From positions 1 through 64,000 of the forward strand of contig JANYDK010000059.1 in the NCBI GenBank assembly GCA_025363655.1: DNA of 64,000 bases, read 5' to 3'. Position numbers and translations under genes: made by a program. The number at the start of each line of letters is the position of its first letter. Position 1 is the first letter of the stretch. The stretch is from Deltaproteobacteria bacterium (GTDB lineage Bacteria; Myxococcota_A; Polyangia; Polyangiales; JADJMO01). The notes under the pieces were generated by a model, which saw nothing but the letters and a program-made list of their open reading frames with translations, did not search any database and was not told the origin of the DNA. This document shows, piece after piece, positions 5,928 through 33,183 of this stretch.

Positions 5928-5938
5928 AGGTCGAACCG

Positions 5939-6400: not shown

Positions 6401-6427
6401 CGATGCTGAAGAAGGCGACGATGCCGC

Positions 6428-10753: not shown

Positions 10754-10817
10754 GGCTCCCCTTCGACGTGTGACGTTCGAGGAGGATCTGCCCCTCGGTC
10801 TCCGAACACAACGCCGA

Positions 10818-11888: not shown

Positions 11889-11948
11889 GCTCGTGGTCCG
11901 ACACCGGGCCGCCGACGATCTTGGCCGCAGCGAGTTACCGCTCGAAAC

Positions 11949-12389
11949 TCAGCGCGGAATCGTCCCCGTCGGCGCCCCCGACGCGCCTGGCGCTCCCGGT
12001 GCAGCAGGCGTGTTCATGAGCTCGAACACCAAGTGCACTTCCGGATTCTTCGTGTCCGGCTTGCACCCTCCCCCCTTGCGCGAGTTCAGCTCACCGCATT
12101 GCAGGCCCTGAAAATAGACCTTGTCGGGCCCGTCGAGCGCGAGGACACAGGAGACGTATCCATCGTCGTCCGAGTCGAACATCGTGCACGCGGCGCCTCG
12201 CATCGGCAGCTTGAGTTTCTCGGCCCAGGCGCGGGCGGCGTCTTCGGGGAGGACGGTGTTGCGCGGGGAGCGGAGGAAGAGCCAGATGAAGAACGCGACG
12301 ACGGCGAGGGTGATGACGCCGATGATGACGACGGTGGTGGTCGTGGAGGACGACGACTTGGAGGGAGGCGCGGGGGCGTCGGTCGTCAT
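11949..12389 (-). CDS. small single-pass membrane protein of unknown function
   Basis: A 146-residue protein beginning MTTDAPAPPSKSSSSTTTT, followed by one transmembrane helix (about 23-43) and an outer domain with four or so cysteines, including AACTMF, YVSCVLALDG, LQCGEL and GGCKPD. It ends in a Pro/Gly/Ala tail. The start at 12389 is chosen because the longer upstream frame reads low-quality Arg-rich sequence. The family is not recognised. It lies between the pseudokinase gene and a small gene at 12431, all co-directional. Confidence 0.72.
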   Translation of the reverse strand: MTTDAPAPPSKSSSSTTTTVVIIGVITLAVVAFFIWLFLRSPRNTVLPEDAARAWAEKLKLPMRGAACTMFDSDDDGYVSCVLALDGPDKVYFQGLQCGELNSRKGGGCKPDTKNPEVHLVFELMNTPAAPGAPGASGAPTGTIPR

Positions 12390-12406
12390 GGGGCGGGAGG
12401 ATAGCG

Positions 12407-12430
12407 CGCGGGCGCGGGCGCGGGCGCGGG
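12407..12430. repeat. (CGCGGG)4 tandem repeat between genes
   Basis: Four perfect copies of the hexamer CGCGGG separate the start of the small membrane-protein gene from the stop of the gene at 12431-12736. It is a simple sequence repeat; no function is visible. Confidence 0.85.
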
Positions 12431-12736
12431 CTAGGGCTCGACCTTCACCAACCGCCCAAAAATCCCGCTCGCGGTGATCCAGCCGTTGATCCTCCCGCGA
12501 TTGTTTCCAATCTGAAATCGATCTCCCTGAATCGCTTTGATCAAGTGGAGATACTGCGCGCCGCCGACCTTGCAGAGGACGATGTCGTGCACTGCGAGGA
12601 CGCCGACGTCGGTGATGGGTTCGACGGTGCAGAGGGCGCCGGAGTGGATTTTCGGGACCATCGAGTTGCCTCGGGGTCGGAATTGGACCGTGGCGCCGGT
12701 TTTGAGTTTTTCGATGTGAGGTGTTGCCCAAGACAT
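12431..12736 (-). CDS. small S24/S26 signal-peptidase-like protein
   Basis: A 101-residue protein starting MSWATPHIEKL. The segment FRPRGNSMVPKIHSGALCTVEP has the GxSMxPxI/L-x-G/D arrangement of the S24/S26 serine-protease fold, with the Ser-Met dyad region. The later VHDIVLCKVGGAQYLHLIKAI matches the strand carrying the catalytic-lysine position in that family, although no clear Lys dyad can be proved here. It lacks a transmembrane anchor, and I see no LexA-like helix-turn-helix. It is probably a stand-alone S24-like protein; an enzymatic role is uncertain. Confidence 0.72.
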   Translation of the reverse strand: MSWATPHIEKLKTGATVQFRPRGNSMVPKIHSGALCTVEPITDVGVLAVHDIVLCKVGGAQYLHLIKAIQGDRFQIGNNRGRINGWITASGIFGRLVKVEP

Positions 12737-14002: not shown

Positions 14003-15411
14003 CCGAGGTCCTCGCGAAGAAGGTTCGCGGCGAGGATGCCCGAGATCGCGGTGAAGCTCACCCACTGGCCCGGGTGCGTCGAGCTGCCCGCGAGATAGAG
14101 ACCGGGAAAATGCGGGCTCCGGTGCGGGATTCGGCCTTGCCGCATGAACTTCGCGGTCATCACCGGGTTCATGCTCTGCGCGTGGAGATGATGCGCCTCG
14201 CCCCACGTCTGCGGCGTGCGCGTGGCCACCATCCGCGCGTCGTAGACGTGCGCGCGCCACCACGGTTCGGCGGTGACGCGCTCGAGATAGTCACGCTGCG
14301 CCGGCTCACCTGCTGCGGCCGCAGCGTAGCGCATCGGACCGAGGATGCGCGCCGGCGCGCGGGCGCCGACGATGGCGCCGTCGTCGAGGACGTGCGGGCG
14401 GATGAGCACGCGCGTGAGCTCGCCCCGCTCGGCGAGGCGAAAGTGCAGATAGGGCCCGCCACGCGGCGAGGACGACGCGATCGACAGGTACGCGCACACG
14501 CCAGGCGACTGGAGCGGAAGCGCACGCAGATCACGCGCCGCGCCCCTGGGTGTGCCGTCGACGAGGTCGAGGTAGGTACCGACCGCGCTCGCGTTCGAGA
14601 CGATCGCATCGGCGTCGATCGTCGCACCCGATTCTGTCTCGACGGACGTGACGCGGGCCCCCTCGCGACGGATCGCGCGCACCTTGGTGGACAGGCGCAG
14701 CTCGACGCCGAGCGAGCGCGCATGGTCCGCGAGCACCCGAGGGATGGTGCCGATGCCACCCCGCGGATAGTAGGCGCCGATGCCGTGGATGAGCGCCGGC
14801 ACGAACGACAGCGGGCTCGGCGCCTCGTCGAGCGTCTGGCCGGCGACGTGGGTCCAGATGGCGATGGCGTCGACGATCTCGGCGGGCAAGTGCGTGGCGC
14901 GCAGCACCGACGCGAGCGAGCGAAGGAGGAACGGCCCCTGCAATAGTGCCCCGTTCTTGACGAGGTCGAGCACGCCCGGATGCGACACCGTCAGCGTCGG
15001 GCGCAAGCGATCGTTTACCTTCGTGACTCGCGCGACGTAGGAGAGATAGCGTTTGCCGCTTCCAGGAAAGCTCCGTTCGAATCCGCTGGCCGTCGCCTCG
15101 AGGCTCTTGAAGAAACGCACCGGTGGCCGTCCGTCGGCGGCGACCTCGTAGACGTCGTCGATCGGTAGGAGCTCGACATGCTCCTCGAGGACGAGGCCGA
15201 GGGCGCCGAAGGCCCACTGCAGCCCCGGAAGGTCGAGCAGGATGTAGGGACCAGCATCGAAGCGGAGGCCTTCGTGCTCGACGCTCGCCGCGAGACCACC
15301 CGCGTGCGCCGAGGCCTCCACCACGGTGACGGAGAGTCCCGCGGCCACCAGCTTGATCGCCGCCGTCAGCCCGCCCATGCCAGCGCCGATCACGACGACG
15401 CGCTTCTTCAC
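13996..15411 (-). CDS. FAD-dependent oxidoreductase, phytoene desaturase/CrtI-like
   Basis: A 471-residue flavoprotein. The N-terminus VVVIGAGMGGLTAAIKL is a dinucleotide-binding fold, followed by VVEASAHAGGLAAS and FDAGPYILLDLPG as in phytoene desaturases and retinol saturases. GIGTIPRVLADHA and a C-terminal GLYLAGSSTHPGQWV FAD segment complete the pattern. The GTG start at 15411 overlaps the stop of the upstream ferritin-like/DUF362 gene (GTGA), which fixes the start. Enzymes of this family desaturate or saturate polyene or lipid chains. No carotenoid genes are near, so the substrate is open; the operon partners suggest lipid or hydrocarbon oxidation. Confidence 0.9.
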   Translation of the reverse strand: MKKRVVVIGAGMGGLTAAIKLVAAGLSVTVVEASAHAGGLAASVEHEGLRFDAGPYILLDLPGLQWAFGALGLVLEEHVELLPIDDVYEVAADGRPPVRFFKSLEATASGFERSFPGSGKRYLSYVARVTKVNDRLRPTLTVSHPGVLDLVKNGALLQGPFLLRSLASVLRATHLPAEIVDAIAIWTHVAGQTLDEAPSPLSFVPALIHGIGAYYPRGGIGTIPRVLADHARSLGVELRLSTKVRAIRREGARVTSVETESGATIDADAIVSNASAVGTYLDLVDGTPRGAARDLRALPLQSPGVCAYLSIASSSPRGGPYLHFRLAERGELTRVLIRPHVLDDGAIVGARAPARILGPMRYAAAAAGEPAQRDYLERVTAEPWWRAHVYDARMVATRTPQTWGEAHHLHAQSMNPVMTAKFMRQGRIPHRSPHFPGLYLAGSSTHPGQWVSFTAISGILAANLLREDLGC

Positions 15412-17267
15412 GAGCCCCCGCGCGGCGCCCGCAGCCCGAGAAGCAGCCGTAGCATCGAGCGCACCGCCCGCAGCCCGGTCCCCTCCGGCACGCGGAACGG
15501 AAACGCGCGCCGGTCCATCTCGGGCACGAACAACGATCCGCGTCCGCTGCCGTACTCGTAGACGGGGCGGGCGAGAAAGCTGAGGAACGTCGAGACGTCG
15601 TTGTGGTAAGGCCCGCGCCAGCCCGCGATAGGCTCGTCGACGCCGTGCACCTGGATGAGCCCGGTGGGATCGCCGAACCAGTCGCACGCCGTCCTGACGA
15701 GGCCCGCGCCGCGCGCGTCTTTCACGCCGACGTGTCGCGCGGCCACGAAGTCCACGGCGATCGCGTCGGCGCCAGCGTAGAGGCGCAGCGGACGCTTGGG
15801 CCGAGGGCAGCCCATCACCCCGATGAGCCCGTCGGCGGCGGAGTCGTAGGCATCGAGGAGCGCGAAGTGAGGGAAGAACGCGCTCGCCATGGTCATCAAG
15901 GCGGCGTCGCGGTGGGCCTGCCGATCGGCGAACAAGAACTCGTCGCAACGCGCGCCGATGCCCTCGAGGTTCGCGAGCGTGAGATACACCTGCTCGATCG
16001 GATGGCTCCGCAGCTTGCCGAAGCTCATGCGGAAGTCGGCGTCCTTCCACGTGGACGACACGCTGTATTGCGCACAGCCGCGGACGTATTCGTGGGGAAT
16101 CTGCTCGGCAGACGCATCGACGATGCGATAGCGCGGAGATTCATAACCAAAATATGCAGCGACCTCGGCGACGCTGCGATGCTCGTAGTAGAAGTCGTAG
16201 AGGTTGCGACCCTCGATGACTACTACTTCGCCCACGCCGAGCGCGCGCAGGTAGCCGGCCAGCTCGTCGAGGAGCTCCGCGTCGGTGAGGCCCGAGCGAT
16301 CGTTGCGGTGATAGCCCAGCATGAACGCCGGCTTCACCACGACGGCGAGCGCCGAAACTTTTTTTCCGACGGCCTTGGCGCGCGCCGCGATCCGCGCCGG
16401 CAGGCAGGCATCGTCGAGGAGCTTCCGGAAGACCGCGCGCTTGTCGTCGCCGGTCTTGCCGCTCGCCACCCAGACCGAGCCGCCGCTGCCGAGGGGGTTG
16501 TCGACGATGGTGTCGCGCCGGTGCGCCCGCACGAGGAAGAACTCGCCGGCCTCGGCCACGCGGTCGGAGAGTCGGTCGACGGTGAAGCCGGGCGCGAAGC
16601 GATCGTCGTCGTCGAGCGCGTCGGCGAAGGCCTCGAAGACGCGGGCGTGGGCCTCCTCGTCCTCCTCGATGCGGCGATACTCGGCGACGGTTGCCTTCGC
16701 CTCGCCCATCGACTCGGCGACCTCGGCGAGCCGCCTCCAGGCGAGCGCCGCCGTTCGCTCGGCGTCGACGTTGAAGCGACAGAACTCGCGGAACGAGTGG
16801 TAGTCGAGCTTCTTGCCAACGACGCTCGACACCTTTCCCATCACGCGCCCGGCGTAGGCGAGCATCGTGGCGGCGAGGCGCGAGAACGGCGCATCACGCC
16901 AGCGCACGTGCTGGCGCACCGAGCTCACCCATCCGGCGACGCCGCCCGATACCTGCTGCATGAACGCCCGGGCCGCGAGGAGAGGACGCCGCATGCGCAG
17001 CAGCACGCCGCGGACGTAGATCGCGTGCATCTCCTCGTCGCGCCACGCCCACTGCAGTGCGTGACGCATGATCGCCTTCACCTCGCGCGAGACGGGAAGC
17101 GACGCGAGACGTTGCGTCATGAGCGTGTCGCGATAGGCGACGTTGACGATCTGCTCGCGCTCGAGCGAGAGCAACCACAGGTTGACCATCTCGTCCTGGG
17201 GACGCCCCTGGTACTTGCGCCGGAACTCCGCGAGCTCCTGCAAGAACTCTTCGTAGACCTCCCCCAT
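15408..17267 (-). CDS. ferritin-like di-iron domain fused to DUF362-type domain
   Basis: A 619-residue cytoplasmic protein with two parts. Residues 1 to about 260 are helical and place metal-ligand pairs as in ferritin-like di-iron proteins: LEREQI on the first helix, RDEEMH on the second, NVDAERT on the third and EDEEAH on the fourth. Residues from about 300 to 560 look like a DUF362 domain (LAVVVKPAFMLGYHRNDRSG, YLRALGVGEVVVIEG, FRMSFGKLRSHP, LANLEGIG). No ferredoxin cysteine cluster is seen. It is the first gene of an operon with a CrtI-like flavoprotein and a hydrolase. It is probably an oxygen-using or metal-binding enzyme; the reaction is unknown. Confidence 0.83.
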   Translation of the reverse strand: MGEVYEEFLQELAEFRRKYQGRPQDEMVNLWLLSLEREQIVNVAYRDTLMTQRLASLPVSREVKAIMRHALQWAWRDEEMHAIYVRGVLLRMRRPLLAARAFMQQVSGGVAGWVSSVRQHVRWRDAPFSRLAATMLAYAGRVMGKVSSVVGKKLDYHSFREFCRFNVDAERTAALAWRRLAEVAESMGEAKATVAEYRRIEEDEEAHARVFEAFADALDDDDRFAPGFTVDRLSDRVAEAGEFFLVRAHRRDTIVDNPLGSGGSVWVASGKTGDDKRAVFRKLLDDACLPARIAARAKAVGKKVSALAVVVKPAFMLGYHRNDRSGLTDAELLDELAGYLRALGVGEVVVIEGRNLYDFYYEHRSVAEVAAYFGYESPRYRIVDASAEQIPHEYVRGCAQYSVSSTWKDADFRMSFGKLRSHPIEQVYLTLANLEGIGARCDEFLFADRQAHRDAALMTMASAFFPHFALLDAYDSAADGLIGVMGCPRPKRPLRLYAGADAIAVDFVAARHVGVKDARGAGLVRTACDWFGDPTGLIQVHGVDEPIAGWRGPYHNDVSTFLSFLARPVYEYGSGRGSLFVPEMDRRAFPFRVPEGTGLRAVRSMLRLLLGLRAPRGGS

Positions 17268-21469: not shown

Positions 21470-21991
21470 TCACGCGTGATGTCGGACGATGCGCGGACGT
21501 CGGCGCACGCGAACGAAGCTCGCGATCGCGACGACGACCAAGGTCGCAGCGACGCCCGAGACGTCTCCCGGCCGCGCCGCGATGCGACCACCGCATCCGT
21601 ACGCGGGAGGCTCGGCGGAGAGCGCGGACGCATCCCCACCGTTCGGATCCTGCCCTTTTTTCAGCTTGGCGACGTCGGAGGCGCCATCGTGGAGAGAGCT
21701 CGTGCCGTCCTTCTCCATCGCCGCGAGCGCGGCCTCGATCGAGCCATCGTCGCGCGCGGCGCCGCCGTGGGCACGGAGCGACTTGCCAAAGGGCGTGTTG
21801 ACGGTGCCGAGGCCCGTGCGACCGCCGACGTGACAGAGCGCGCACGGCGGCGTGTAGGAGAGACCGAGCGCGCCGGCGACGACGTCGGGATAGTTCGGCG
21901 TCGCTCGCGCGCGAGAAGGGATTGCGAGCAACGCGAAGCTCGCGAGGACGAACGCGGCGACGAAGAGGGCCAGTGATCTCATCGCCTTCAT
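21470..21991 (-). CDS. heme-motif (CxxCH) membrane-anchored protein with MYXO-CTERM-like tail
   Basis: A 173-residue exported protein. A signal peptide (to about residue 30) precedes one CALCH cytochrome c heme-binding motif (PPCALCHVGG). The C-terminus has GCGG, a hydrophobic helix and then RVRRR, similar to MYXO-CTERM sorting tails that hold proteins at the envelope. The start at 21991 overlaps the upstream gene's stop (ATGA), and both encode a heme motif, so coupled expression is likely. It is probably an electron-transfer or redox-sensing partner of the porin-like protein. The function is inferred. Confidence 0.78.
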   Translation of the reverse strand: MKAMRSLALFVAAFVLASFALLAIPSRARATPNYPDVVAGALGLSYTPPCALCHVGGRTGLGTVNTPFGKSLRAHGGAARDDGSIEAALAAMEKDGTSSLHDGASDVAKLKKGQDPNGGDASALSAEPPAYGCGGRIAARPGDVSGVAATLVVVAIASFVRVRRRPRIVRHHA

Positions 21992-23217
21992 CACAAGAAC
22001 GCGTGGAGTTGGAGGAGCACGCTCTCGACGTTGGCGTGGGCGCCGCCCGCGGCGACGCGCGAATGAATGAAGTCGGTGCGGACGTCGAAGTGGGGCGCGA
22101 AGAACCACGTCAGGCTGAGCCAGGCCCCGAACGATGGGTCGGCGCCCGCCTGCGCCGGTCGCAACGTCTCACCCGTGACCATCACGTGCATGCCCTGTCG
22201 CACCTCGAAATCGGCTTGTAAAAGGCCGGCGTAGCCCGAGGCGGTGGCGGCGCCGTCGGGCGAGAGGAGGAGCCAATCGCCCTCTGCCATCAGCACCAAG
22301 GGTTCCCACGGCGAGGCTCGGACGAAGAGGCCATGCGCTTGCCTCGCATAGGCGACGCGGGTGGTGACGTCGCGGAGCGCCTGGGTGCGCAAGCTGCTGA
22401 GGCCGATGCCGACGTGAGGATCGACGAAGTACTCGAAGAGCGCGCTATAGCCACGTTCGCGGTAGTCGTCGGGGTGGAGCGCGAAGTTGCCGACGATGGC
22501 CATCAGCTCGCCGCGGCTCTTGGTGTCGGAGTACGCGAGCGCGAGGCCGTACTGCTGCGTGTCGTTGAGATCGGTGCGGGTCGACGCGCGCACGAACGCG
22601 TTGTGCTCGACGGTGCGGACGCCGAAAGGGAGCGCCAGACGACCCGTGCGAATCATCACCGCATCGCCGATGGCCACGCCGATCCAGTGCTCGCGCGACA
22701 CGAGGTTGTCTTTGTCACGCGAGGTGATCGACGCCGAGAGGGCGCCGCCATGCGCGTATCCGAGGCTCGCGCCGGCGCGAAATATGCCTGGTTGAAGCCC
22801 GATTTTGAGATCGGCCTGCATCTGCACGTAGCGCGCGATCGCCGGCGCTGGCGAAGGCGGCTTCGAGTAGAGATACATGCCGCGATAGCTGCCACCGGGG
22901 AGGAGCCAGTCGGGAGTCTCGAGGAGACCGAAGAGGAAGCCGGCCGTCTTGCTCGCCTCCTCGGGGCCGGCCTTGCCGTTCTTCGTGTAGTGATCGCGAA
23001 GGAGCAAATCGCCCTGCGCGCGGCCGTACGGAGTGAGCACGCCGGCCCCCGAAGGATCGAGGTGACAGGTCGTGCAGGCTCCGTAGCCGTGACGAATCAT
23101 CCACGGATACGCCGACGCGGTGCGCGTGAAGGCCAAGGTGACGACGAGCGCGAGGGCGAAGGTCGCGAGGGCGACGAACGCGCGAACGGGCGACGACGAA
23201 CGCATCCTTCGACTCAC
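21991..23217 (-). CDS. porin-like outer-membrane protein with N-terminal heme motif
   Basis: A 408-residue exported protein. After the signal peptide comes a single CxxCH motif (GYGACTTCHLDPSGAGVLTPYGRAQ), then about 300 residues of alternating hydrophobic and aromatic strands (for example GIFRAGASLGYAHGGALSASI and RTGRLALPFGVRT) ending in Leu (LLQLHAFL), the pattern of an outer-membrane beta barrel. This suggests a heme module placed at the mouth of a porin, a fused version of porin-cytochrome systems. It overlaps the YceI stop by four bases and the next gene by one base. It is probably part of an electron or substrate conduit. Confidence 0.78.
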   Translation of the reverse strand: MSRRMRSSSPVRAFVALATFALALVVTLAFTRTASAYPWMIRHGYGACTTCHLDPSGAGVLTPYGRAQGDLLLRDHYTKNGKAGPEEASKTAGFLFGLLETPDWLLPGGSYRGMYLYSKPPSPAPAIARYVQMQADLKIGLQPGIFRAGASLGYAHGGALSASITSRDKDNLVSREHWIGVAIGDAVMIRTGRLALPFGVRTVEHNAFVRASTRTDLNDTQQYGLALAYSDTKSRGELMAIVGNFALHPDDYRERGYSALFEYFVDPHVGIGLSSLRTQALRDVTTRVAYARQAHGLFVRASPWEPLVLMAEGDWLLLSPDGAATASGYAGLLQADFEVRQGMHVMVTGETLRPAQAGADPSFGAWLSLTWFFAPHFDVRTDFIHSRVAAGGAHANVESVLLQLHAFL

Positions 23218-23786
23218 AAGTCCTTGGCGACGAAGGTGAGCGCGACGCCGACGGCGGGATCGACCGAGACGCCGACGTACCCAGGGGTCTCGACGCCGTA
23301 GTCGGTCATGACGAGGTTGAGCGCGCCGCGAACGACGTAGTTCCCATCGCGCTTCTCGATCTCATATCCGACCTTGACCTTCTTCTGCACGCCATGAAGA
23401 TCGAGCGTGCCGGTGGTGGTCGATTTGCTCTTCGCGCCCTCGGCGGGGAGCTTGAGATCCGATTTGACGACCGTCAGCTTGGTGGTCGGCCACTTCGCGG
23501 TCTGCAGATACTTGTCGCGCATGTGGGTGTTGCGCAGCTCCATGCCGGTGTCGATGGTGGTGAGCCCGACGGTGATGGTGAGGTTCTTCCCGTCGTCGGC
23601 GATCGTGACGTCGCTGCCGGTGCCGGTGAACTTCATCGCCGGAGTGCCGGTGGCGAAGAAGAAGACCTTCGAGTCACCGACGCGTTTGAGCGCCGCATGT
23701 CCATCGTCCGGCCAACTGCAGATGGCGATGCTGAGCGCAATCGAGACGGGAATTCCGGCCTGAACGAGCGTCTTTCGCAATGACAT
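23214..23786 (-). CDS. YceI-family periplasmic protein
   Basis: A 190-residue protein with a signal peptide (to about residue 31). The mature part shows YceI strands: SKVFFFATGTPAMKFTGTGS, MELRNTHMRDKYLQTAKWPT, then TLDLHGVQKKVKVGYEIEK and the end VDPAVGVALTFVAKDL. YceI proteins are lipocalin-like and bind polyisoprenoids or related lipids. The start is read from a good ATG, and the 3' end overlaps the porin gene by four bases (ATGA). It sits in the middle of the heme/DUF1592 gene series, suggesting a lipid or quinone carrier role there. Confidence 0.88.
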   Translation of the reverse strand: MSLRKTLVQAGIPVSIALSIAICSWPDDGHAALKRVGDSKVFFFATGTPAMKFTGTGSDVTIADDGKNLTITVGLTTIDTGMELRNTHMRDKYLQTAKWPTTKLTVVKSDLKLPAEGAKSKSTTTGTLDLHGVQKKVKVGYEIEKRDGNYVVRGALNLVMTDYGVETPGYVGVSVDPAVGVALTFVAKDL

Positions 23787-23828
23787 GACGGGTGCTCCTC
23801 TCTTCGACTTTCGGACTTCAGGACGGGC

Positions 23829-25226
23829 TCAGAGGCGGAAGGCGAGGGCCAGCACTGCGCGCGCGAGCTCGTCGCTCGCGGAGGTCGCGACGTAGGCGTC
23901 GCCGGGCTCGCTGCGGAAGGTCCAAGAGAAGCGCGTGAAGGCGACGCCGAGGGACAGCTCGAGGTGCGAGCCGAGCGGCGCTGCGACCGAGGCCTCGAGC
24001 TCGACGCCGGTGACGCTGCTGTGGCGGAATCGCGTCGTCAGCGGCGTCGCCGAGAGAGGATGCACCCATGCCGCGCCGAGCCGCAGCTCGACCGACGCGA
24101 GGGTCGCGCGCACGAGTCCACCGAGGCGAATCGATCGATAGGTGACCGAGGGAAGATCGGGCGACGACGCGTCCTCGAGTCGGAAGTCGTCACGCGAGAA
24201 CGCGCCCACCGGACCAAGAGCTACGCCGCTCTTGCCAAGCGCCACGAGCCAGCGCGCGCCGGCATCGAGCCGTGCCCACTTCGTCTTCACGTCGGAGCCG
24301 CCTTCGACCTGCGAGGTGGTCGCCACCGTCATGTGGTAGTCGGCGAAGACGCCGAGCCCTTGCAGGAGCTTGACGGGCGTATGTGAAAATGGCGTCAAAT
24401 CCAGCGCCATCGTGACCCCGGGGGCGCTCGGCAAATCGTACGGACGGAGGTTGGTGGTGCCGGGGTTCTGGTAGACGAAGCGACGCGAGGCCATCTCGGC
24501 GCCGACCGCGAGGGCGACGATTTCATCGTGCACGCGGCCCTTCTTGCTCGGGGCCGAGCCAACATCCCCCACGTCACTCCCGTCGCCATGGGTCCCGAGA
24601 AGATCGTCGACCGAGGGAGGCTCCGGGCCTTCGCTCGCGCCCGCGACAGCATCTCCCTCCGGAGCACCGTTCGAGGAACTCGCCGCCGCCACCGGAGGCG
24701 CCTTCAAGCTGACGGCGATGGCATGGAGCGGCCCATCGATGGCTGCGAGGAGCGCGACGTCGTCCTTCTTGCTCGGCGCATGGCCGACGCGGGTGACGAC
24801 GTGCGAGGGCGAGACGCCGCCGTGGCAATCGACGATCTCGTAGGTGACGTCGCGTCCCTTCTTGTCGACGGCGACGCGAATGACCACCATCGCATCGACG
24901 CCCGAGGCGGCACCGACGGTCTTCATCTTCTCGAAGAGCGCGGCGCGACCCTTCTCGGTGGCGGCCGCCTTCTGGACCGTCCCCTCGAGACCGGCCGCAT
25001 GCAGCGCCTTCACGACGTCGCCACCCTCGCGCAACGTCACCCCATCGAGGCTGCCCTTGGTGAGCAAAATGGCTATTTTTCTCGACTCTTTCTCTTCGGC
25101 GAGGACGACGACGACGATCGGCTTCTCGGCAGCGACGGCCGATCGTTCGCATGTGAAGGACGCGAGCGGACCGCCGAGACCGGCGAGCATGCCCACGAGC
25201 AAGATACGAACGTGCGCGCGGGTCAT
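23829..25226 (-). CDS. envelope protein with outer-membrane-like C-terminal domain
   Basis: A 465-residue exported protein. The signal peptide is MTRAHVRILLVGMLAGLGG onward, giving a soluble first half (about 35-190) with strands such as PIVVVVLAEEKESRKIAIL and a Ser/Pro-rich linker (about 190-250). The second half alternates polar and hydrophobic strands and ends VLALAFRL, typical of a beta barrel. The ATG at 25226 overlaps the stop of the lipoprotein gene (ATGA). No named family is recognised. It is the fourth gene of the operon running from 29251 to 21470. Confidence 0.72.
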   Translation of the reverse strand: MTRAHVRILLVGMLAGLGGPLASFTCERSAVAAEKPIVVVVLAEEKESRKIAILLTKGSLDGVTLREGGDVVKALHAAGLEGTVQKAAATEKGRAALFEKMKTVGAASGVDAMVVIRVAVDKKGRDVTYEIVDCHGGVSPSHVVTRVGHAPSKKDDVALLAAIDGPLHAIAVSLKAPPVAAASSSNGAPEGDAVAGASEGPEPPSVDDLLGTHGDGSDVGDVGSAPSKKGRVHDEIVALAVGAEMASRRFVYQNPGTTNLRPYDLPSAPGVTMALDLTPFSHTPVKLLQGLGVFADYHMTVATTSQVEGGSDVKTKWARLDAGARWLVALGKSGVALGPVGAFSRDDFRLEDASSPDLPSVTYRSIRLGGLVRATLASVELRLGAAWVHPLSATPLTTRFRHSSVTGVELEASVAAPLGSHLELSLGVAFTRFSWTFRSEPGDAYVATSASDELARAVLALAFRL

Positions 25227-26101
25227 GGGCAGGCCACCGCTTTGGTGTCGAGCACCAGCTCGTCGAAATAGACGTCCATCGGATGATCGAGCGCGGCGAC
25301 GTGATAGAAGCCGAGCGTAATCTCGGAGAACGTCGGCACCTTTGCGGGGAGCGGTTGGCTCGTCGTCGTGCCGTCGCTCGTCTTGCCGTCGACCGCTGTG
25401 ACCTTGACCGCGTTGCTCGCCCCATCGAGCTCGAACTGCACGCAGGCGAACTTCGTCGTCGGCACCTTGCCACCCCCCGCGGGGTATTCGCCTTTGCTGT
25501 CGAACGAGGTGACCTGCCAACCGTCGATGTAGCTGCCAATTTCCAAGTGCGGGCCGCTCACCGGGCCGGCGTTGAAGAAGCGACTGTGCCCTTGGTGCAC
25601 GTCGGGCGCGGCGTAGAAGAACATGCGGCCGAAGAGGTGCGATTGAATCGCCTTGGGAACGGCGGCGAGCTTCAAGTAGATGGCGTCGCCGCTCTGATCG
25701 AGGTGGAAGTGCGCGGCGCGCTTGCCGCGAGCGACGATCGCCGTCTGCACCTCGAAGGCGCCTCCACCGTCGTTGGTGACCGCCCAACGTGCGTCGAGCG
25801 TGGCCGATTCGAAGTCTTCGCAGAGCGCAGCGGTGCACGACGGCGGGGGCGCGGTCTCGGGTGCCGTGTCGACGGTGACGACGTCGGCGATGGGCGCATC
25901 GCCGCTGGCGTCCGCGCCGACGACGCCACCGTCGGGGTTCGTGTCGCCGGTGTCGCCGACCTCGTCGTAAGAGACGTCGAGACGCGCGGCATCGGTGCCC
26001 GCCTTGGCATCGCCCTTCCCCGGATCGCCGTCGAACTCACTCGCACAGGCGACGAGCGCGAGGCCGAGCACGAACGCAATCGACTTGTTTTTACGGCTCA
26101 T
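25223..26101 (-). CDS. lipoprotein with concanavalin/laminin-G-like jelly-roll domain
   Basis: A 292-residue protein with a signal ending in LALVAC (lipobox), an Asp/Gly/Thr linker (about 20-85), then a jelly-roll-like domain: CTAALCEDFESATLDARW, VARGKRAAHFHLD, LFGRMFFYAAPDV and VYFDELVLDTKAV. Such LamG-like domains often bind glycans; the enzyme site is not visible. It lies five bases downstream of the DUF1552 gene and its 3' end overlaps the envelope protein gene by four bases, so it is co-transcribed. It could be a surface sugar-binding partner of the DUF1592/DUF1552 proteins. Confidence 0.8.
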   Translation of the reverse strand: MSRKNKSIAFVLGLALVACASEFDGDPGKGDAKAGTDAARLDVSYDEVGDTGDTNPDGGVVGADASGDAPIADVVTVDTAPETAPPPSCTAALCEDFESATLDARWAVTNDGGGAFEVQTAIVARGKRAAHFHLDQSGDAIYLKLAAVPKAIQSHLFGRMFFYAAPDVHQGHSRFFNAGPVSGPHLEIGSYIDGWQVTSFDSKGEYPAGGGKVPTTKFACVQFELDGASNAVKVTAVDGKTSDGTTTSQPLPAKVPTFSEITLGFYHVAALDHPMDVYFDELVLDTKAVACP

Positions 26102-26105
26102 GGTC

Positions 26106-27548
26106 TCAACCGCGGAGCCGCGGGAGAGGTCCCTTGCAGACCGAAGGCTCGCCGAAGGTGGAGGTGGAGATGCCCATCGCGTTGGCGATGGAGACGAACA
26201 AATCGTTGTGCGCGAGCCCGACGCCTCCAGGACGGTCGTAGGCGAGATAGCGACCCATCTTGAAGTAGCCGTTGCCCCCGCCGGCGAGCATCCACGGCAG
26301 TCGCTCGAGCGCGTGGCCACCTTCCGCGATTTGTCCGCACCAGAGGACGACGGTGCTGTCGAGGAGCGTGCCGCCGTCGGGCTCGGGGATGCCGTCGAGG
26401 TGATCGAGCAAGCTGGCGAACATCTGCGACTGGGTGACGTGGATCTTCTTCACCATCGCCATCGCGCCCGCGTCGCCCCACAGCGCCGCATCTTTGTTGT
26501 TCGTCTTGTGCGTGAGGTCGTGCGAGTCGCTGGTACCGAACATGCCGCCGCTGTAGCCGACGGTGGATTCGAGGTCGTAGTGCGTCGGAAGATGAACGGT
26601 CGCCACGCGCGTCAGGTCGCACGAGAACGCAGCCGTCACCAGGCGCGCGTCGAGATCGAAATCGGCCAGCGCGTTTCGCCCGGGCAGCTTCCAGGCCGCC
26701 AAATCCATCTTGTATTTGGCGTCCGGCGGCACGCAGGCGCTCGAAGCGTGGAGCGCCAGCCGCGACTCGAGATCGCGAATCGCGGCGGCGTGGGCCTCGA
26801 GCTTGACGCGATCTTCCTTGGCGAGCGCGAGCTTGGGCGTCACCTTGTCGAACTCGCCGGCCGCCGCGTCGAGGACGCTCTTCTTCTGCGCGAGCGCCGC
26901 CTTCGCCGCCGAATCGTCGGGCGCGGCGAAGCTGGCGAAGACGCGCTTGAAGGCCGCGTTCGGGTTCTGCTCGGGCGAAGTGGGTGTGCCGGCCGAGAGA
27001 TAGTGCGGACCGCCTTCGGAGTCGCCGCCATCGGCCCCCGACGAGAGCTCGAGCGAGGGCACCGCGGTGAGCGGCGTCGGCTTGTTGATGCTCTGCGCGA
27101 TCCATTGATCGATCGACGGTCCGGCGGCGAGCGCGTCGCTCTGACGTTTGGCGGCGGTGAGCGCGTGGGTGCCGCCCTTGACGTGCGAGTTGCGCGCGTC
27201 GACCTGCTTCACGTTCTGCACCGCCATGTCGAGCCCATCGAGCACGATCAGCTTGGATTCATGGCCTTTCAGCGGTCCGTGGAGCGAGCCGAGGGCCCAG
27301 CTCGTCTCGCTCGGGGCGCCTCCCGAAGGACCCGTCGGCGAGTAGAAATCCCACATCGAGCCCATGCCGTAGACGAAGAGCACGCGCGTCGGCGCCGTCG
27401 ACGGACCGGCCACGGCCGAGCGCATCTCGCGGAGCGTGTAGGGGAGCACCGCCGCGGCGAGACCACCGAGACCGAGCGCACGAAGCATCGATCGGCGCGA
27501 GGTGATCGAGGTGAGCGAGCTGAGAGGGGTTCGAGAGTCCTTGATCAT
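26106..27548 (-). CDS. DUF1552 protein, probable Tat-exported
   Basis: A 480-residue protein. The N-terminus SRRSMLRALGLGGLAAAVLP is a twin-arginine-type signal. The body follows DUF1552, a family of the alkaline-phosphatase/sulfatase-like type found beside DUF1592-family proteins in planctomycetes and myxobacteria: VLFVYGMGSMWDFYSP, LIVLDGLD, VKGGTHALTA and SSGADGGDSEGGPHYLS. Its start overlaps the stop of the DUF1592-family gene (ATGA). The enzyme activity of the family is unknown. The gene pair is a recognisable co-occurring unit; the family label is based on motif pattern. Confidence 0.87.
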   Translation of the reverse strand: MIKDSRTPLSSLTSITSRRSMLRALGLGGLAAAVLPYTLREMRSAVAGPSTAPTRVLFVYGMGSMWDFYSPTGPSGGAPSETSWALGSLHGPLKGHESKLIVLDGLDMAVQNVKQVDARNSHVKGGTHALTAAKRQSDALAAGPSIDQWIAQSINKPTPLTAVPSLELSSGADGGDSEGGPHYLSAGTPTSPEQNPNAAFKRVFASFAAPDDSAAKAALAQKKSVLDAAAGEFDKVTPKLALAKEDRVKLEAHAAAIRDLESRLALHASSACVPPDAKYKMDLAAWKLPGRNALADFDLDARLVTAAFSCDLTRVATVHLPTHYDLESTVGYSGGMFGTSDSHDLTHKTNNKDAALWGDAGAMAMVKKIHVTQSQMFASLLDHLDGIPEPDGGTLLDSTVVLWCGQIAEGGHALERLPWMLAGGGNGYFKMGRYLAYDRPGGVGLAHNDLFVSIANAMGISTSTFGEPSVCKGPLPRLRG

Positions 27549-29251
27549 GGCGTCCTCAATCGCAGGCGGAAGGGTTCGCTCTCGATGACGGCGATGAGCA
27601 ACTCACGGACGTCGAGCCCGTGATCGCCGAAGGTCTTCGACACCGGCGCGACCATCGAGGCGCTGATCTCGTTGCCGGCGAGCCCGAGCGAGTAGCGCAG
27701 CCACTCGCGGCTGACGCAGGTCTGCACTTGCTGACTCGAGGCCAGCTTCTTCCCCAAGTCGACCGCGCCATCGAAGGGCCCATCGACGTCGGTGCCGAGC
27801 AGCTCACCCGTCGAATCGACGGGAAAACCAGAGTCTTTCGTGCGGAAGGCACCGGTCGCGTCGTAGTGCTCGAAGCCGAAGCCGACGCCGTCGATGAGCT
27901 TGTGGCAATCGGCGCAGGTGCCTTGCTCGTGGGTGCTCGCGAACCGATCGCGCGTGGTGTGCGGCGTCGCGCCGTGCGAAGGCGGAGATTGATTGACCCC
28001 TGGGGGTGGTGGCGGCGGAGGCGCGCAAAGCACGTTGCGAAGAACGAAGACGCCCCGCAACACCGGCGAGTCGTCGGTCTGGTGGGCGAGCGCCGCCATC
28101 ACGCCGGGGTCGGTGAGTAGCCCTGCGCGCTGCGTCGACTCGAGGCTGGTCAGCTTAGGCGACGCGCTCCCAGGTGGGGCGACGCCGAACATCGGCGCGG
28201 TCGCGTCGGTGACGAAGCCGTGCGTATCGGTGAGCATCGCCGTGAGCGTCCCTTGCTCCCAGAAGAGCCAGTCGACGTACTGCGCGGTCGCTGCTCGCAG
28301 CGCGCCGGGCGTCTTCGCGTTGTCCCAATAGGCAAAGATGCTGACGTCTTTCTGCGCGCTCTCGAGGATGCCGAGCGGGAGCCACTGCGCGTGGAAGGCC
28401 GCAATCGCCTCGTGGGCGCGAGGGTCGGCGAGGAGCCTCCGCGCCTGCTTCTCGATCTCCGCCGAGTCGCCGAGCTTGCCGCTCGCAGCGGAGGCGAGGA
28501 GCGCGTCGTCGGGCGGCGCGTTCCAGAGAAAGTAGGACATGCGGCTCGCCAGCTCGAAGGGCCTCAGCTGATAGCGTCCGTCGGCCTGAAGCTCGCCGAG
28601 CTCGTAGAGATAGAGAAACTGCGGCGACTGCAGCACCGTCTCGATCGTCATCCGCAGCGCGACGCCGAAGCCGTACGACGCACGGGAGGCCGAAAAAAAG
28701 GTGCGTAGACGATCGCGCTCGTCGGTCTCGAGGGGACGACGATAGGCCTTGGCGCCGAACGCATCGACGAAGGAGAAGCCGCAGGGCTCTTCGTCGGCGG
28801 CGCTCGAGACCTTGCAGGGTAGAATCTTCGTCGGGTCGGCGACCGCGAGCGTCGCGACGGCGTTGGCGCCATTGGCCAGCTGCTCGATCAGATCGGCCGA
28901 GGGCGCTTGCGCACGCGCGTTGTTGTCGAAGCCGCCGACGACGACCGCGCGCGGCAATGTCTGCGTCGGGATCGAGAGCCCCGGAAAGAGCGCTCTCAGC
29001 GTGTTGTTGTATTGCGTCGTCGTCAGCCGCGCGGCAGGCACGGCGAGGAAGACGTTCGGCGGAGGATCGCCGATGCCGCCGCCACCACCTCCTCCTCCAC
29101 CGCCACCCGCACCGCTGCCGTCGTCCTTCTTCTGCGGAGCACCGACGACGCCCCGGCAGCCGACGCTGCCGAACGCCGCGAAGCTCGCGCCGAGACCGAG
29201 CGCGCAGATGACCGCCAACGCCTGAGGTGCCGTGCTCGCCGTTCGTCCCAC
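27545..29251 (-). CDS. DUF1592/DUF1588/DUF1585-family cytochrome-like protein
   Basis: A 568-residue exported protein with a glycine-rich linker (runs of Gly at about residue 50) after the signal. The order LTTTQYNNTLRALF (DUF1587), FGAKAYRRPLETDERDRLR (DUF1595), ASRMSYFLWNAPPDDALL (DUF1592), FVLRNVLCAPPPPPPPGVN with a CADCH motif (DUF1588) and a final LDVRELLIAVIESEPFRLR (DUF1585) is that of the planctomycete/myxobacterial multi-DUF proteins. CADCH is a heme-like motif. The GTG at 29251 follows a GGAGGAGG site, which decides the start. It is the first gene of the seven-gene run. Confidence 0.9.
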   Translation of the reverse strand: MGRTASTAPQALAVICALGLGASFAAFGSVGCRGVVGAPQKKDDGSGAGGGGGGGGGGGIGDPPPNVFLAVPAARLTTTQYNNTLRALFPGLSIPTQTLPRAVVVGGFDNNARAQAPSADLIEQLANGANAVATLAVADPTKILPCKVSSAADEEPCGFSFVDAFGAKAYRRPLETDERDRLRTFFSASRASYGFGVALRMTIETVLQSPQFLYLYELGELQADGRYQLRPFELASRMSYFLWNAPPDDALLASAASGKLGDSAEIEKQARRLLADPRAHEAIAAFHAQWLPLGILESAQKDVSIFAYWDNAKTPGALRAATAQYVDWLFWEQGTLTAMLTDTHGFVTDATAPMFGVAPPGSASPKLTSLESTQRAGLLTDPGVMAALAHQTDDSPVLRGVFVLRNVLCAPPPPPPPGVNQSPPSHGATPHTTRDRFASTHEQGTCADCHKLIDGVGFGFEHYDATGAFRTKDSGFPVDSTGELLGTDVDGPFDGAVDLGKKLASSQQVQTCVSREWLRYSLGLAGNEISASMVAPVSKTFGDHGLDVRELLIAVIESEPFRLRLRTP

Positions 29252-29402
29252 GTGACCTCCTCCGAACGTGCAGAGGAGCCGACCTACGCCGATCGGCTCA
29301 CCGATCGTCGAAATCGCGTTTTGTCGCTGATTTTCGTGCATTCCTCGCTATTTCCGGGGAGAGTGAGCCGATCGAGGCCGATCGCGCCTCTCCCTGTCGA
29401 CC

Positions 29403-29951
29403 ATGCCGAGACCTGCCATCGCCGCCGTCCCCGTGGACGATGCCGCCCTCGTCGCGCAAGCGATCGACGGCAGCGAGCGGGCGTTCGCGGCGCTCTACAA
29501 GCGGCACGCGCGTTACGTCGCCGGCGTCGTCTATCGCATCCTCGGTCGCGACGACGAGCTCGACGACATCTTGCAAGAGGCCTTCATCGACGCTTCGCAC
29601 GCGCTCGAAGGTCTGCGGGAGCCGGGTGACTTCCGAGCTTGGCTGGTGCGCATCACCATCCGTCGCGTGCACAAGCGGCTCGGCAAGCGGCGCCTCATGC
29701 GACGACTCGCGGCGGCGATGGAGTGGATCGCGCCACGCGTGGAGAGCCCCGCCGCCGAAGGGGAAGCGCGCGCCCTCTACCACGCGCTCGACAAGCTCTC
29801 TCCGAAGCTGCGCATCCCCTGGGTGCTGCATGTCATCGAGGGTGAAACGCTGCCCGACGTCGCCAAGGCCTGCGACGTCTCGCTGGCGACGGTGAAGCGG
29901 CGCATCGCCGAAGCCGAGGCGAGTCTTGGGGGAGGTTCCCATGGATCGTGA
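29403..29951 (+). CDS. RNA polymerase sigma factor, ECF (sigma-70 family)
   Basis: A 182-residue sigma factor. Region 2 is ALYKRHARYVAGVVYRILGR with DDELDDILQEAFIDASHAL, and region 4 is WVLHVIEGETLPDVAKACDV with SLATVKRRIAEAEASL, the recognition helix-turn-helix. It directs RNA polymerase to envelope-stress promoters. The FecR-like gene overlaps its 3' end by 11 bases, so the two form a sigma/anti-sigma-type pair. It is divergent from the DUF1592 operon, 151 bases away; that gap probably holds the promoters of both. Confidence 0.93.
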   Translation: MPRPAIAAVPVDDAALVAQAIDGSERAFAALYKRHARYVAGVVYRILGRDDELDDILQEAFIDASHALEGLREPGDFRAWLVRITIRRVHKRLGKRRLMRRLAAAMEWIAPRVESPAAEGEARALYHALDKLSPKLRIPWVLHVIEGETLPDVAKACDVSLATVKRRIAEAEASLGGGSHGS

Positions 29952-30978
29952 ACAGATCGAGCGCGTGCGCCGGGCGATGGAACCTCCGTGGGACGACGTC
30001 CGCGAGCAGCGCGTGCTCGGGCGCATCACCGAGGCCCGCCGTGCGAGACCGCCGAAGAGGCGCGTGCGTGTCGTACCGATCGCCCTATTTTCTGGGGTGA
30101 TCGCCGTCGCAGCGGCAGTGCTCCTCTTCTTCGTCCTTCGTGTGCCGCGCCTGGACGCCTCGCACGTGGCGGTCCCTGCGCCGCCGCACGACGACGCCGC
30201 GCACCTCACGCTCGTCGACGGTTCGGTGGCTACCCTCGAAGCCGACGCACGCGTCCGTGTCGATACGCAAAGCCCTGGTCGCATCGAGCTCTCGCAGCTC
30301 GGCGGCAAGGTCGGCTACGACGTCACGCACGACACCTCACGACCGTTCTTGATCCACGCCGGCAAGGTGGTGGTCTCGGTGCTCGGCACGCGCTTCGTCG
30401 TCGTTCGCAACAAGAACACCGTCGAAGTGCACGTCATCGAAGGCCTCGTCGGCGTCGATGACGGCAAGCGCGTCCGCGAGGTGAGCCCGGGCGAGACGTT
30501 GATCGTCCCCGTCGACGACGAGACCGCCGCGCTCGAGGCGCCGAGCGGAAAACCGGCTTCGATCGCCAACATCGATGCGGGCTCTACCTCGATCACGCCG
30601 CCGGTCACCGCGGCCACGCTCCTCGCCAAGGCCGACGAGGCGCGCGCCAAGGGCAATAGCGACGAAGCGGCGGGCGCGCTCCAGCAGATGTTGATCATGT
30701 TCCCGAGCGATCCGCGCGTCCCTTCGGCCGCGTTCACCCTCGGTCGGCTCGAACGCAAGCGTGGACACGCCGCCGCCGCCGCGCAGGCCTTCGCCCGTTG
30801 TCGCGCGGCGGCTCCCCATGGCGCGCTCGCCGAAGACGCGCTCGCCGAAGAGGCGCTCGCCTGGTCGGCCGGCGGACAGAAGAAAGCAGCAGAAAGCGCC
30901 GCATCACGCTATCTTTCAGCTCATCCGAGCGGCGCTTATGCCGCTCGGATGAAGCCGTTGCTCGAGGGAGCTCCCTGA
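29941..30978 (+). CDS. FecR-like/TPR membrane protein, probable partner of the ECF sigma factor
   Basis: A 345-residue protein. A cytoplasmic N-terminus of about 40 residues (DREQIERVRRAMEPP) precedes one transmembrane helix (about 43-66). The outer part carries a FecR-type domain with TLVDGSVATLEADARVRVD and VLGTRFVVVRNKNTVEVHVI, then TPR-like helices at about 215-335 (DEARAKGNSDEAAGALQQML, RLERKRGHAAAAAQAF). I chose the ATG at 29941 because GGGGGAGG lies six bases upstream. It is likely a membrane regulator of the sigma factor, sensing the outer envelope. Confidence 0.88.
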   Translation: MDREQIERVRRAMEPPWDDVREQRVLGRITEARRARPPKRRVRVVPIALFSGVIAVAAAVLLFFVLRVPRLDASHVAVPAPPHDDAAHLTLVDGSVATLEADARVRVDTQSPGRIELSQLGGKVGYDVTHDTSRPFLIHAGKVVVSVLGTRFVVVRNKNTVEVHVIEGLVGVDDGKRVREVSPGETLIVPVDDETAALEAPSGKPASIANIDAGSTSITPPVTAATLLAKADEARAKGNSDEAAGALQQMLIMFPSDPRVPSAAFTLGRLERKRGHAAAAAQAFARCRAAAPHGALAEDALAEEALAWSAGGQKKAAESAASRYLSAHPSGAYAARMKPLLEGAP

Positions 30979-30982
30979 TCGC

Positions 30983-31972
30983 GTGAACGTCTCTGCGCTG
31001 GCTACCGCCGTCGTCGTCCTCGCGAGCCCCGGCCTAGCCTTCGCCGGACCGTTCGCGATCGATACCTCTGCGTGTCCCAGCCTCGACGCCGAGGAGATCG
31101 ATCGGCGCGTCCGCGTCGAGCTCGCCGACGTCGCGACCGCGCAAGAAGGCGCCGGTAGCCTGCGGGTCACGTTCACGTGCAACGACGCGCCGAAGGGCAT
31201 GGCAACGGTCGTGATCTCCGATCCGATCACCGACAAGCGCGTCGAGCGAACGGTGCCCTTGCCGCCGAAGCTCGATCGCGAACGGGTGCTCGCCCTCGTC
31301 GCCGCGCAGCTCTTCACCACCAGCTGGCTCGAGCTCCTCACTCACCCCTCGCCCGACGCGCGCCCTGCCCCGCGCGATCCGCCGCCCGCAGCGCTGACCG
31401 ATCGCGCGCTCGAACGAGCCAACGCCGAGGCCGGAAGCGGTGGTCGCGCACGCGGCATCGAGCTCGCAGTCGGAGGCCTCGCCGATCTTCGAAGTCTTGG
31501 TTCGGGGCCTATTTTCCTCGGCGGCGGCTTCGTCCGACCGGGCTTCTTCCTCGGCGATCACCTTCGTCTCGATCTCGCGAGCTCGTTCGCCACCGGACAC
31601 GCGGCGCGCACGCACGGCGCCATCGATGCGACCGTCTTCGGCTTCGGCCTCGGGCTCGGCTATCGCTCGTCGGGGCGTGCCTCTGTGGCCTTCGAGGGCC
31701 ACGCGCTCGCGTCCCTCGCCTACGCACGCGTCGTCGGCACCTCCGACTCTCCCGGCTTCGGCGACGCGACGGCACGCGGCTTCTTCGCCGATTTTTCTCT
31801 CGCCTTCGGTCCGAGCGTACGCATCGGCGCCTCGCACCTCGCCCTCGAAGCGCTCGGTGGACTCGCTCTCCCGAAGTTGCGCGCAGCGGTCGAAGGCGAT
31901 CACGACCTCGTCCTCTCTGGCGCCTTCGTCGGCGCGCGTCTCACCCTCGCCGCCGGCTGGGGTGGCTCATGA
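30983..31972 (+). CDS. exported protein with outer-membrane-like C-terminus
   Basis: A 329-residue protein starting with GTG and a signal peptide (NVSALATAVVVLASPGLAFA). The first 140 residues are soluble with a Cys pair (TSACPSLD, TFTCNDAPK) and a LALVAAQLFTTSWLEL helix. The rest alternates strands ending LTLAAGWGGS, in the style of an outer-membrane barrel. It lies five bases after the FecR gene and its stop overlaps the RCC1 gene by four bases, so it belongs to the sigma-factor operon. The function is unknown. Confidence 0.78.
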   Translation: MNVSALATAVVVLASPGLAFAGPFAIDTSACPSLDAEEIDRRVRVELADVATAQEGAGSLRVTFTCNDAPKGMATVVISDPITDKRVERTVPLPPKLDRERVLALVAAQLFTTSWLELLTHPSPDARPAPRDPPPAALTDRALERANAEAGSGGRARGIELAVGGLADLRSLGSGPIFLGGGFVRPGFFLGDHLRLDLASSFATGHAARTHGAIDATVFGFGLGLGYRSSGRASVAFEGHALASLAYARVVGTSDSPGFGDATARGFFADFSLAFGPSVRIGASHLALEALGGLALPKLRAAVEGDHDLVLSGAFVGARLTLAAGWGGS

Positions 31973-33183
31973 ACGGCCGCATCGTCAGCGCACTCGCGAT
32001 GTCCTCGCTCTTCGGATCGTCGGCCTGCGGCTTCGAGGAGCCGGTGCTCTTCGGCCAAGAAGCAGGCGCCCTCGCCGATCGCGATTCGACTGGAATTTCC
32101 GACGTTCCCACCACCTCGGGCCCCCTCCCCGGCACCGCGGTCATCGCCGGACAAGACCACGCGTGCGTGCTCGATGCCGGTCACCTCGTCTGTTGGGGCG
32201 CCAACGAAAAAGGACAGCTCGGGATCGGCGACACCAAAGATCGAAACGCCGGAGTCAGCGTCGCCCCCGATCGCCTCTTCGCCGAAGTGTGCGGCGGACG
32301 CGTCCATGGCTGCGCCCTCGAGGTCGGCAGCGGCTTCGTCGACTGTTGGGGCGATGGCAGCCAAGGCCAGCTCGGCGACGCGCTCGCGTCCTCGTCGACG
32401 CCGCGCGTCGTCCCGCTCGGATTGCCCGCGACGTCGATCGCCTGCGGCTACGATCACTCCTGCGCCGTGCTCTCCGACGGCACGCTCAGCTGTTGGGGAA
32501 GAAACAGCGAGAACCAACTGGGCCGCGGCGCCAGCACTCCCTTCGAAACGACGCCCATGCGCGTGAACGGCGGCATCGCCGATTGGGTGCGCGCCTCCGC
32601 CTCCGACGGTCACACCTGCGGCATCCGCAGCGACGGCTCGCTCTGGTGTTGGGGTCGCAACGAAAGCGGCGAGTGCGGACTCGGCGCAGGGGCACCGGTG
32701 CAAGTCTTCACGCCCACGCACCTCGGCGCCGACGTCGACTGGGTGCGCATCGTGCTCGGCCAAAACGCGACCTGCGGATTGCGCAACGACGACTCGCTGT
32801 GGTGTTGGGGAAGCAACGATTTCGGCGATCTCGGCTTCCCACCGCCGACGGGTTCGAACGTCCCACGTCGCGTCGAAGGCCCAGCTGGATACTTCGCGCT
32901 GGCGGTCGAAACGTTTCATGGCGGCGGCATCCAACGCGACGGTTCGCTGTGGACCTGGGGTCGCAACGCCGAAGGACAGCTCGGCGTCGGCGACATCGTC
33001 GATCGCGGCACGCCGACGAAGGCTGGCGACGCCTCGCGTTGGATCGGCGTCGCCACCGGTCGCTTTCACACATGCGCGTTGCGTGCCGACAAGCAGGTGC
33101 TCTGCGCCGGCGAGAACGAACGCGGCCAGCTCGGCACCGGAGACCTCGTCCGTCGCAACGTCTTCCAACCGATCGCTCGTTGA
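31969..33183 (+). CDS. RCC1-repeat (beta-propeller) lipoprotein
   Basis: A 404-residue protein with a lipobox-like signal (FGSSACGF) and then seven RCC1-type repeats, each with H-x-C-[GA], C/W-[WG] and QLG/GDLG features: HACVLDAGHLVCWGANEKGQ, HGCALEVG, HSCAVLSDGT, HTCGIRSDGSLWCWGRN, ATCGLRNDDSLWCWGSN, GGGIQRDGSLWTWGRN and HTCALRADKQ. Seven repeats fit one seven-bladed propeller. In myxobacteria such proteins are extracellular scaffolds. Its ATG overlaps the previous stop. It is probably a target or output of the sigma factor operon; the role is inferred. Confidence 0.9.
   Translation: MNGRIVSALAMSSLFGSSACGFEEPVLFGQEAGALADRDSTGISDVPTTSGPLPGTAVIAGQDHACVLDAGHLVCWGANEKGQLGIGDTKDRNAGVSVAPDRLFAEVCGGRVHGCALEVGSGFVDCWGDGSQGQLGDALASSSTPRVVPLGLPATSIACGYDHSCAVLSDGTLSCWGRNSENQLGRGASTPFETTPMRVNGGIADWVRASASDGHTCGIRSDGSLWCWGRNESGECGLGAGAPVQVFTPTHLGADVDWVRIVLGQNATCGLRNDDSLWCWGSNDFGDLGFPPPTGSNVPRRVEGPAGYFALAVETFHGGGIQRDGSLWTWGRNAEGQLGVGDIVDRGTPTKAGDASRWIGVATGRFHTCALRADKQVLCAGENERGQLGTGDLVRRNVFQPIAR

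Follow-up and report, generated by a model that had tools for sequence, protein, structure and literature searches.

Cyc2, which serves as a marker of iron oxidation, is the protein through which fused cytochrome–porins are chiefly known. Cyc2 is defined by a single CXXCH motif, a fused 16-strand OprP-like porin and two sequence motifs, AXPXFAR[QK][TY] and PXL, and the structural match of its barrel is 2O4V (Keffer et al. 2021, PMC8406198); Cyc2-like genes are already known in Myxococcota (PMC12442345). YceI proteins bind ubiquinone-8 and accompany cytochromes (PMC9113575), and Cbp2D combines YceI and c-type cytochrome domains, the latter of which can reduce lytic polysaccharide monooxygenases (LPMOs; PMC8981238). 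Here we describe a cluster of seven genes from a Deltaproteobacteria bacterium (Polyangiales; JADJMO01; assembly GCA_025363655.1; genome of 9.0 Mb, 96% complete), located at 21470-29251 on contig JANYDK010000059.1, of which positions 1-64,000 make up the window, the whole 64,000-nucleotide stretch that we analysed. On balance, we believe that the cluster encodes a short-range outer-membrane redox relay, the core of which is formed by a YceI protein (g5), a cytochrome–porin (g6) and a second monoheme protein (g7).

The seven genes, all on the minus strand, adjoin one another at the place given by the first-pass annotation of the window, never more than 42 bases apart, and are numbered here in reading order. 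The three core genes are g5 (23214-23786), encoding YceI with a signal peptide (Pfam E 1.1e-15, above cut-off); g6 (21991-23217, GTG start), encoding by alignment and structure prediction a fused monoheme cytochrome and 16-strand porin; and g7 (21470-21991), whose monoheme product has a Ca-binding-like D-x-D-G repeat and a C-terminal tail of Gly-Cys, transmembrane helix and Arg that resembles MYXO-CTERM. They are preceded by g1 (27545-29251), g2 (26106-27548), g3 (25223-26101) and g4 (23829-25226). Neighbouring frames overlap by 4 bases at g1/g2, g3/g4 and g5/g6 and by 1 at g6/g7, with gaps of 4 bases between g2 and g3 and 42 between g4 and g5; judged from these overlaps, a single transcript is plausible. 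A scan for promoters and terminators returned no promoter-like site, and terminators were not found beyond chance. Pfam confirms the earlier identification of g1 as a multi-DUF protein, g2 as DUF1552 and g5 as YceI, and gives no matches in g3, g4, g6 or g7.

We searched for g6 in 115 related genomes and, separately, in 140 genomes across the phylum, and detected it in 27 and 24 of these, respectively, some of the latter holding only distant relatives. The neighbourhoods of 80 g6 loci taken from named genomes reveal a conserved unit across Myxococcota, namely YceI–heme-porin–heme protein: g7 directly follows g6 in 72 of the 77 loci with enough downstream sequence, YceI is found upstream in 43 of 64, and no further gene family comes near the frequency of either. 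A lipoprotein-like protein with three CXXCH motifs, whose first domain resembles cytochrome cbb3 subunit III, is encoded in or beside the cassette in nine of the 80 loci, mostly between YceI and g6 (L053, L057, L064, L069, L074, L078, L088, L093 and L105). A plasmid search returned no g6 and just one g2, a distant one. The cassette also occurs, in myxobacterial form, in a metagenome-assembled genome (MAG) titled Klebsiella pneumoniae (L094), which is probably mislabelled or a contaminated bin.

The structure predicted for g6 from a 72-sequence alignment is of high quality (predicted local distance difference test, pLDDT, 93.9; predicted template modelling score, pTM, 0.90) and consists of an N-terminal CXXCH segment followed by 16 strands. 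The top matches found by VIA-align are OprO and OprP (Z 26.3-26.8 over 300-301 residues, root mean square deviation 2.5-2.7), with other porins ranking closely behind; because the comparison covers only the barrel, residues 54-372, it barely tests the fold of the heme segment. In general porins the constriction loop connects strands 5 and 6; the corresponding loop of g6 ranks with the best-conserved regions of the barrel. The barrel and its inward loop contain several near-invariant residues, namely Arg, His, Asp and Glu. Sequence searches of the PDB with g6, g1 and g2 profiles yielded nothing credible.

The candidacy of g6 as a Cyc2 was rejected, since both signature motifs fail in all of its relatives: AXPXFAR[QK][TY] precedes the CXXCH in none of 98, and PXL follows it in none of 98. 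Full-length profiles of g6 and of the Myxococcota Cyc2-like proteins align over only 26 columns, in the heme segment, with an E-value of 1.5e-4, and when the columns flanking CXXCH were shuffled while the motif itself was kept, 2 of 200 shuffled g6 profiles did as well. With the profile extended by four distant g6 relatives, the E-value becomes 1.6e-7 and none of 200 shuffles is as good; one of the four, L210, carries AIPRFAARNGNEC ahead of its heme motif. From these alignments, kinship between the two heme segments is likely but not proven, and g6 likely represents a sister family of Cyc2, one without a described function. Genuine Cyc2-like genes were found by motif search in 11 of 282 Myxococcota genomes sampled (proteins L131-L140, L142 and L143), and three genomes, G017, G018 and G062, each hold such a protein in addition to g6. 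In four distant relatives of g6 (L211-L214, from G205, G225, G148 and G186) the barrel is preceded by two CXXCH motifs, which makes them possible diheme cytochrome–porins.

The heme motifs reported by the first-pass annotation are present and in frame, all on the minus strand: CADCH in g1 (27902-27916), CTTCH in g6 (23062-23076) and CALCH in g7 (21830-21844). The window as a whole contains five CXXCH-encoding sites, three of them these, where chance would give 1.8; a total of five turns up in 5 of 100 shuffles, so that the count by itself is weak evidence and conservation is the real evidence. CXXCH is present in 98 of 98 g6 relatives, a single copy being counted beyond the signal region in 97 of them, and in 23 of 23 aligned g7 relatives; its columns are invariant across 26 DUF1592 proteins, and in one of these the cysteines stand one residue further apart. 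Heme would probably be attached at these motifs.

The 23 aligned g7 relatives share, besides CXXCH, the motif D-x-D-G-x-x-D and an invariant Gly-Cys ahead of a hydrophobic stretch and basic residues. The MYXO-CTERM signal, a tripartite tail made up of an invariant cysteine, a transmembrane helix and an Arg-rich end, sends proteins to the cell surface (PMC11980579), and the g7 tail, as read from the alignment, has this layout. Two curated models of the signal, TIGR03901 and TIGR03382, weakly match 4 and 3 of the 23 relatives, respectively. By analogy with characterized YceI proteins, g5 may bind a quinone.

The remaining genes of the cluster form a block of a different character. The g1 product is of the DUF1592 type, with Pfam domains PSD3, PSD5, PSD4, PSCyt3 and PSD2 (DUF1587/1595/1592/1588/1585); it is likely a lipoprotein, given a lipobox-like SVGC, and starts with GTG at 29251, an in-frame ATG at 29341 being a possible alternative. 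The g2 product is a DUF1552 (HXXSHH) protein with a signal resembling those of twin-arginine translocation: an RR motif is present, the match to TIGR01409 falls below cut-off, and Pfam TAT_signal is matched by 10 of 26 relatives. An AlphaFold2 model of g2 built from four sequences reached a pLDDT of 39.6 and was not used. The lipoprotein encoded by g3, with a lipobox-like LVAC, had been labelled LamG-like, a label to which Pfam lends no support; its homologue in genome G079 matches instead the Cip1-like/polysaccharide-lyase-like family PF21340, and in that genome g1-g2-g3-g4 stands alone (L164). From its sequence, g4 is predicted to be an exported protein with a small N-terminal domain and a barrel-like C-terminal part; no family matches it, and its homologues adjoin g6 in two other loci (L031 and L043).

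DUF1592 genes are abundant, being found in 152 of the 282 Myxococcota genomes sampled, several per genome, and DUF1552 adjoins DUF1592 in 20 of 20 neighbourhoods examined. For the first-pass annotation, a lack of conserved co-occurrence in related genomes would have counted against its reading of the cluster. Our comparison did not refute it in this way, YceI–g6–g7 being conserved over the 80 loci; the DUF pair, however, is mostly separate, standing beside the cassette in only 3 of the 37 loci flanked on each side by 5 kb or more. On these neighbourhood counts we reject the seven genes as a single conserved operon: the DUF1592–DUF1552 pair, with the Cip1-like lipoprotein and the barrel, is accessory and mostly located elsewhere. 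The three loci in question are L113 and L117, near-identical and from two Myxococcus species, which have the gene order of the window, and L104, in which the pair lies downstream of the cassette and convergent to it. The organism's own genome contains a second g6 locus (contig C123:44000-63000, L031; genes at 4978-12495), with a g3-like gene, g1, g2, g4, g6 and g7 and no YceI; its g6 is about 40% identical to that of the window and is therefore not a recent duplicate. Thus both g6 loci of this genome have the DUF pair just upstream on the same strand. As the 9.0 Mb of this genome contain just four full DUF1592 loci, such co-location is very unlikely by chance, as judged by simple arithmetic rather than a formal test. 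Across the wider set, the pair is too common for mere proximity to carry significance, and it is the shared order that counts. Both the g1 tree and the g6 tree imply a minimum of three changes in the DUF link along well-supported branches, concerning both own-genome loci, Myxococcus and one MAG; this fits a block that has joined the core repeatedly, with the bootstrap of the g1 tree not fully settled and gains not distinguishable from losses.

Profile comparison places the DUF pair near another pair of adjacent genes. DUF1552 is homologous to DUF1501 by its profile match (probability 97.9%, E 6.4e-13), in an alignment that retained some untrimmed DUF1501 rows, which can only blur the match. 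DUF1592 bears a weak resemblance to DUF1800, which is matched by 9 of 26 DUF1592 proteins (best E 2.8e-5). From these two matches, kinship of the DUF1592–DUF1552 pair with DUF1800–DUF1501 is probable; the latter pair is of unknown function and travels with bacterial chitin synthase genes (PMC5122149). In two further loci of the own genome, on C70 (56909-59982) and C78 (1152-4146), a DUF1501 gene comes after a weak match to DUF1592, and C70 also has a weak match to DUF1800; these genes are apparently intermediate between the two types.

Divergent to g1, on the plus strand, is a trio of genes encoding an extracytoplasmic function (ECF) sigma factor (29403-29951; Pfam), a FecR domain protein with TPR-like repeats that is its probable partner (29926-30978; Pfam), and d1 (30983-31972), to which no family was assigned. 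Nine loci have an ECF sigma gene divergently upstream of the cassette, and seven of the nine lack the DUF pair; Pfam places FecR beside the sigma gene in L074 and L108, and similarity does so in L113 and L117. The near-identical Myxococcus loci share the whole trio, and in L113 d1–FecR–sigma diverges from g1–g2–YceI–g6–g7 as in the window, the d1 homologue following FecR. This recurrence suggests that the sigma/FecR pair may control the cluster. Elsewhere in the window, an RCC1-repeat protein is encoded downstream of the trio at 31921-33183 (plus strand), and a 619-residue protein at 15408-17267 (minus strand) has a DUF362 domain in its C-terminal half.

Of the two functions entertained by the first-pass annotation, an outer-membrane redox system and polymer attack, the former is supported in outline by the predicted fusion of a heme segment with a 16-strand barrel, the MYXO-CTERM-like heme protein, YceI and the conservation of the cassette. 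In the relay that we favour, a small redox-active solute would probably enter the g6 pore and exchange an electron with the g6 heme at the barrel's periplasmic end, and electrons could pass among this heme, the g7 heme and a quinone held by YceI. In its own organism the relay would also carry the DUF1592 heme lipoprotein, its DUF1552 partner, the Cip1-like lipoprotein and the second barrel; in some other genomes it would have the triheme lipoprotein in or beside the cassette instead of these additions. The ECF sigma/FecR pair would probably turn the unit on upon an envelope signal. Several observations weigh against this proposal. A lone heme in a barrel protein cannot by itself span the outer membrane. 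YceI is not upstream of g6 in 21 of 64 loci, nor in the second locus of the own genome, and is therefore not essential to the cassette. To these we add the scarcity of the DUF pair beside the cassette, the absence of both Cyc2 motifs from the g6 family, and the failure of the two curated MYXO-CTERM models to match the g7 of the window.

The main rivals to the relay are an inward flow of electrons, as in Cyc2, and an outward flow to a step acting on polymers. As an inward conduit, g6 would take electrons in its pore from a soluble reductant, be it dissolved Fe(II) or another, and hand them to periplasmic carriers. The architecture shared with Cyc2, the alignment of the heme segments with the extended profile, and the near-invariant Arg, His, Asp and Glu of the barrel and inward loop speak for such a conduit, which we nonetheless consider rather unlikely: the Cyc2 motifs are missing from all 98 g6 relatives, the g6 profile alone was equalled by two shuffles, and genuine Cyc2-like proteins exist separately, some alongside g6 in one genome, which suggests a different job for g6. 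Polymer attack would have electrons flow outward and feed an oxidative step on a polysaccharide outside the cell, with g3 binding the polymer and g1 and g2 acting on it. The PF21340 match of the g3 homologue, the reduction of LPMOs by Cbp2D and the company that the related DUF1501/DUF1800 pair keeps with chitin synthase genes are in accord with it. Nevertheless, within the cluster the idea leans on g3, Cip1-like by homology, and is weakly supported; g1-g4 are missing from nearly all cassettes, the cluster contains no glycoside hydrolase, and a search of the own genome, 96% complete, for an AA10 LPMO found none, which is mild counter-evidence. We therefore regard it, too, as improbable.

The heme proteins might alternatively keep a YceI-bound quinone reduced and thereby quench lipid radicals in the envelope, as proposed for BcnA/LcoA. 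The known occurrence of YceI lipocalins beside cytochromes and a sigma/FecR pair suited to an envelope signal are compatible with an antioxidant of this sort, but the cluster lacks a cytochrome b561, YceI is missing in a third of loci and a 16-strand porin would be left without a role, so that we think this quite doubtful. It is also unlikely that YceI–g6–g7 and the DUF1592/DUF1552 block are separate, unrelated operons brought side by side by chance. The abundance of DUF1592 genes and the solitary block in G079 speak for chance neighbours; the recurrence of the pair upstream of both own-genome g6 loci, despite so few full DUF1592 loci, the same order in Myxococcus and the overlapping genes speak against them.

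What is new here is a conserved gene setting for a cytochrome–porin, together with an accessory DUF1592/DUF1552 block. We propose, as a tentative generalization, that Myxococcota contain a hitherto undescribed family of cytochrome–porins related to Cyc2 which, with YceI and a surface-anchored monoheme cytochrome, would form a short single-heme outer-membrane relay under ECF/FecR control, to which DUF1592/DUF1552 pairs and triheme lipoproteins could be added as interchangeable redox modules. If this is true, the Planctomycete-type PSCyt/DUF1552 proteins would gain their first functional setting. In the cluster, DUF1592 and DUF1552, abundant and unexplained in Planctomycetes, Verrucomicrobia and Myxococcota, stand beside a testable candidate electron-transfer unit, one that is also found in culturable Myxococcus species. 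A second, sister-like family with fixed partners in heterotrophic predators and soil bacteria would widen the roles of heme in a porin and would caution against calling every cytochrome–porin an iron oxidase.

Among the closest described systems, the DUF1800–DUF1501 pair resembles DUF1592–DUF1552 in being an adjacent gene pair with matching profiles, but the DUF1592 proteins here have the PSCyt3 heme domain and belong to Pfam families of their own. The YceI lipocalin–cytochrome systems, BcnA/LcoA and Cbp2D, likewise bring YceI together with a heme protein; there the partner is a cytochrome b561 or a fusion with a carbohydrate-binding module, whereas here it is a predicted outer-membrane cytochrome–porin. 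Conduits of the MtrAB type also join a heme protein to an outer-membrane barrel, although theirs is a long heme wire and g6 has one CXXCH in a single fused chain of 16 strands. With Cyc2, g6 shares a similar size, a single N-terminal CXXCH on a predicted 16-strand OprP-like barrel and, by the extended profile, a probably related heme segment; it differs from Cyc2 in lacking both signature motifs, in the constant [DN]P[ST]G after its heme motif and in its conserved partners, YceI and g7.

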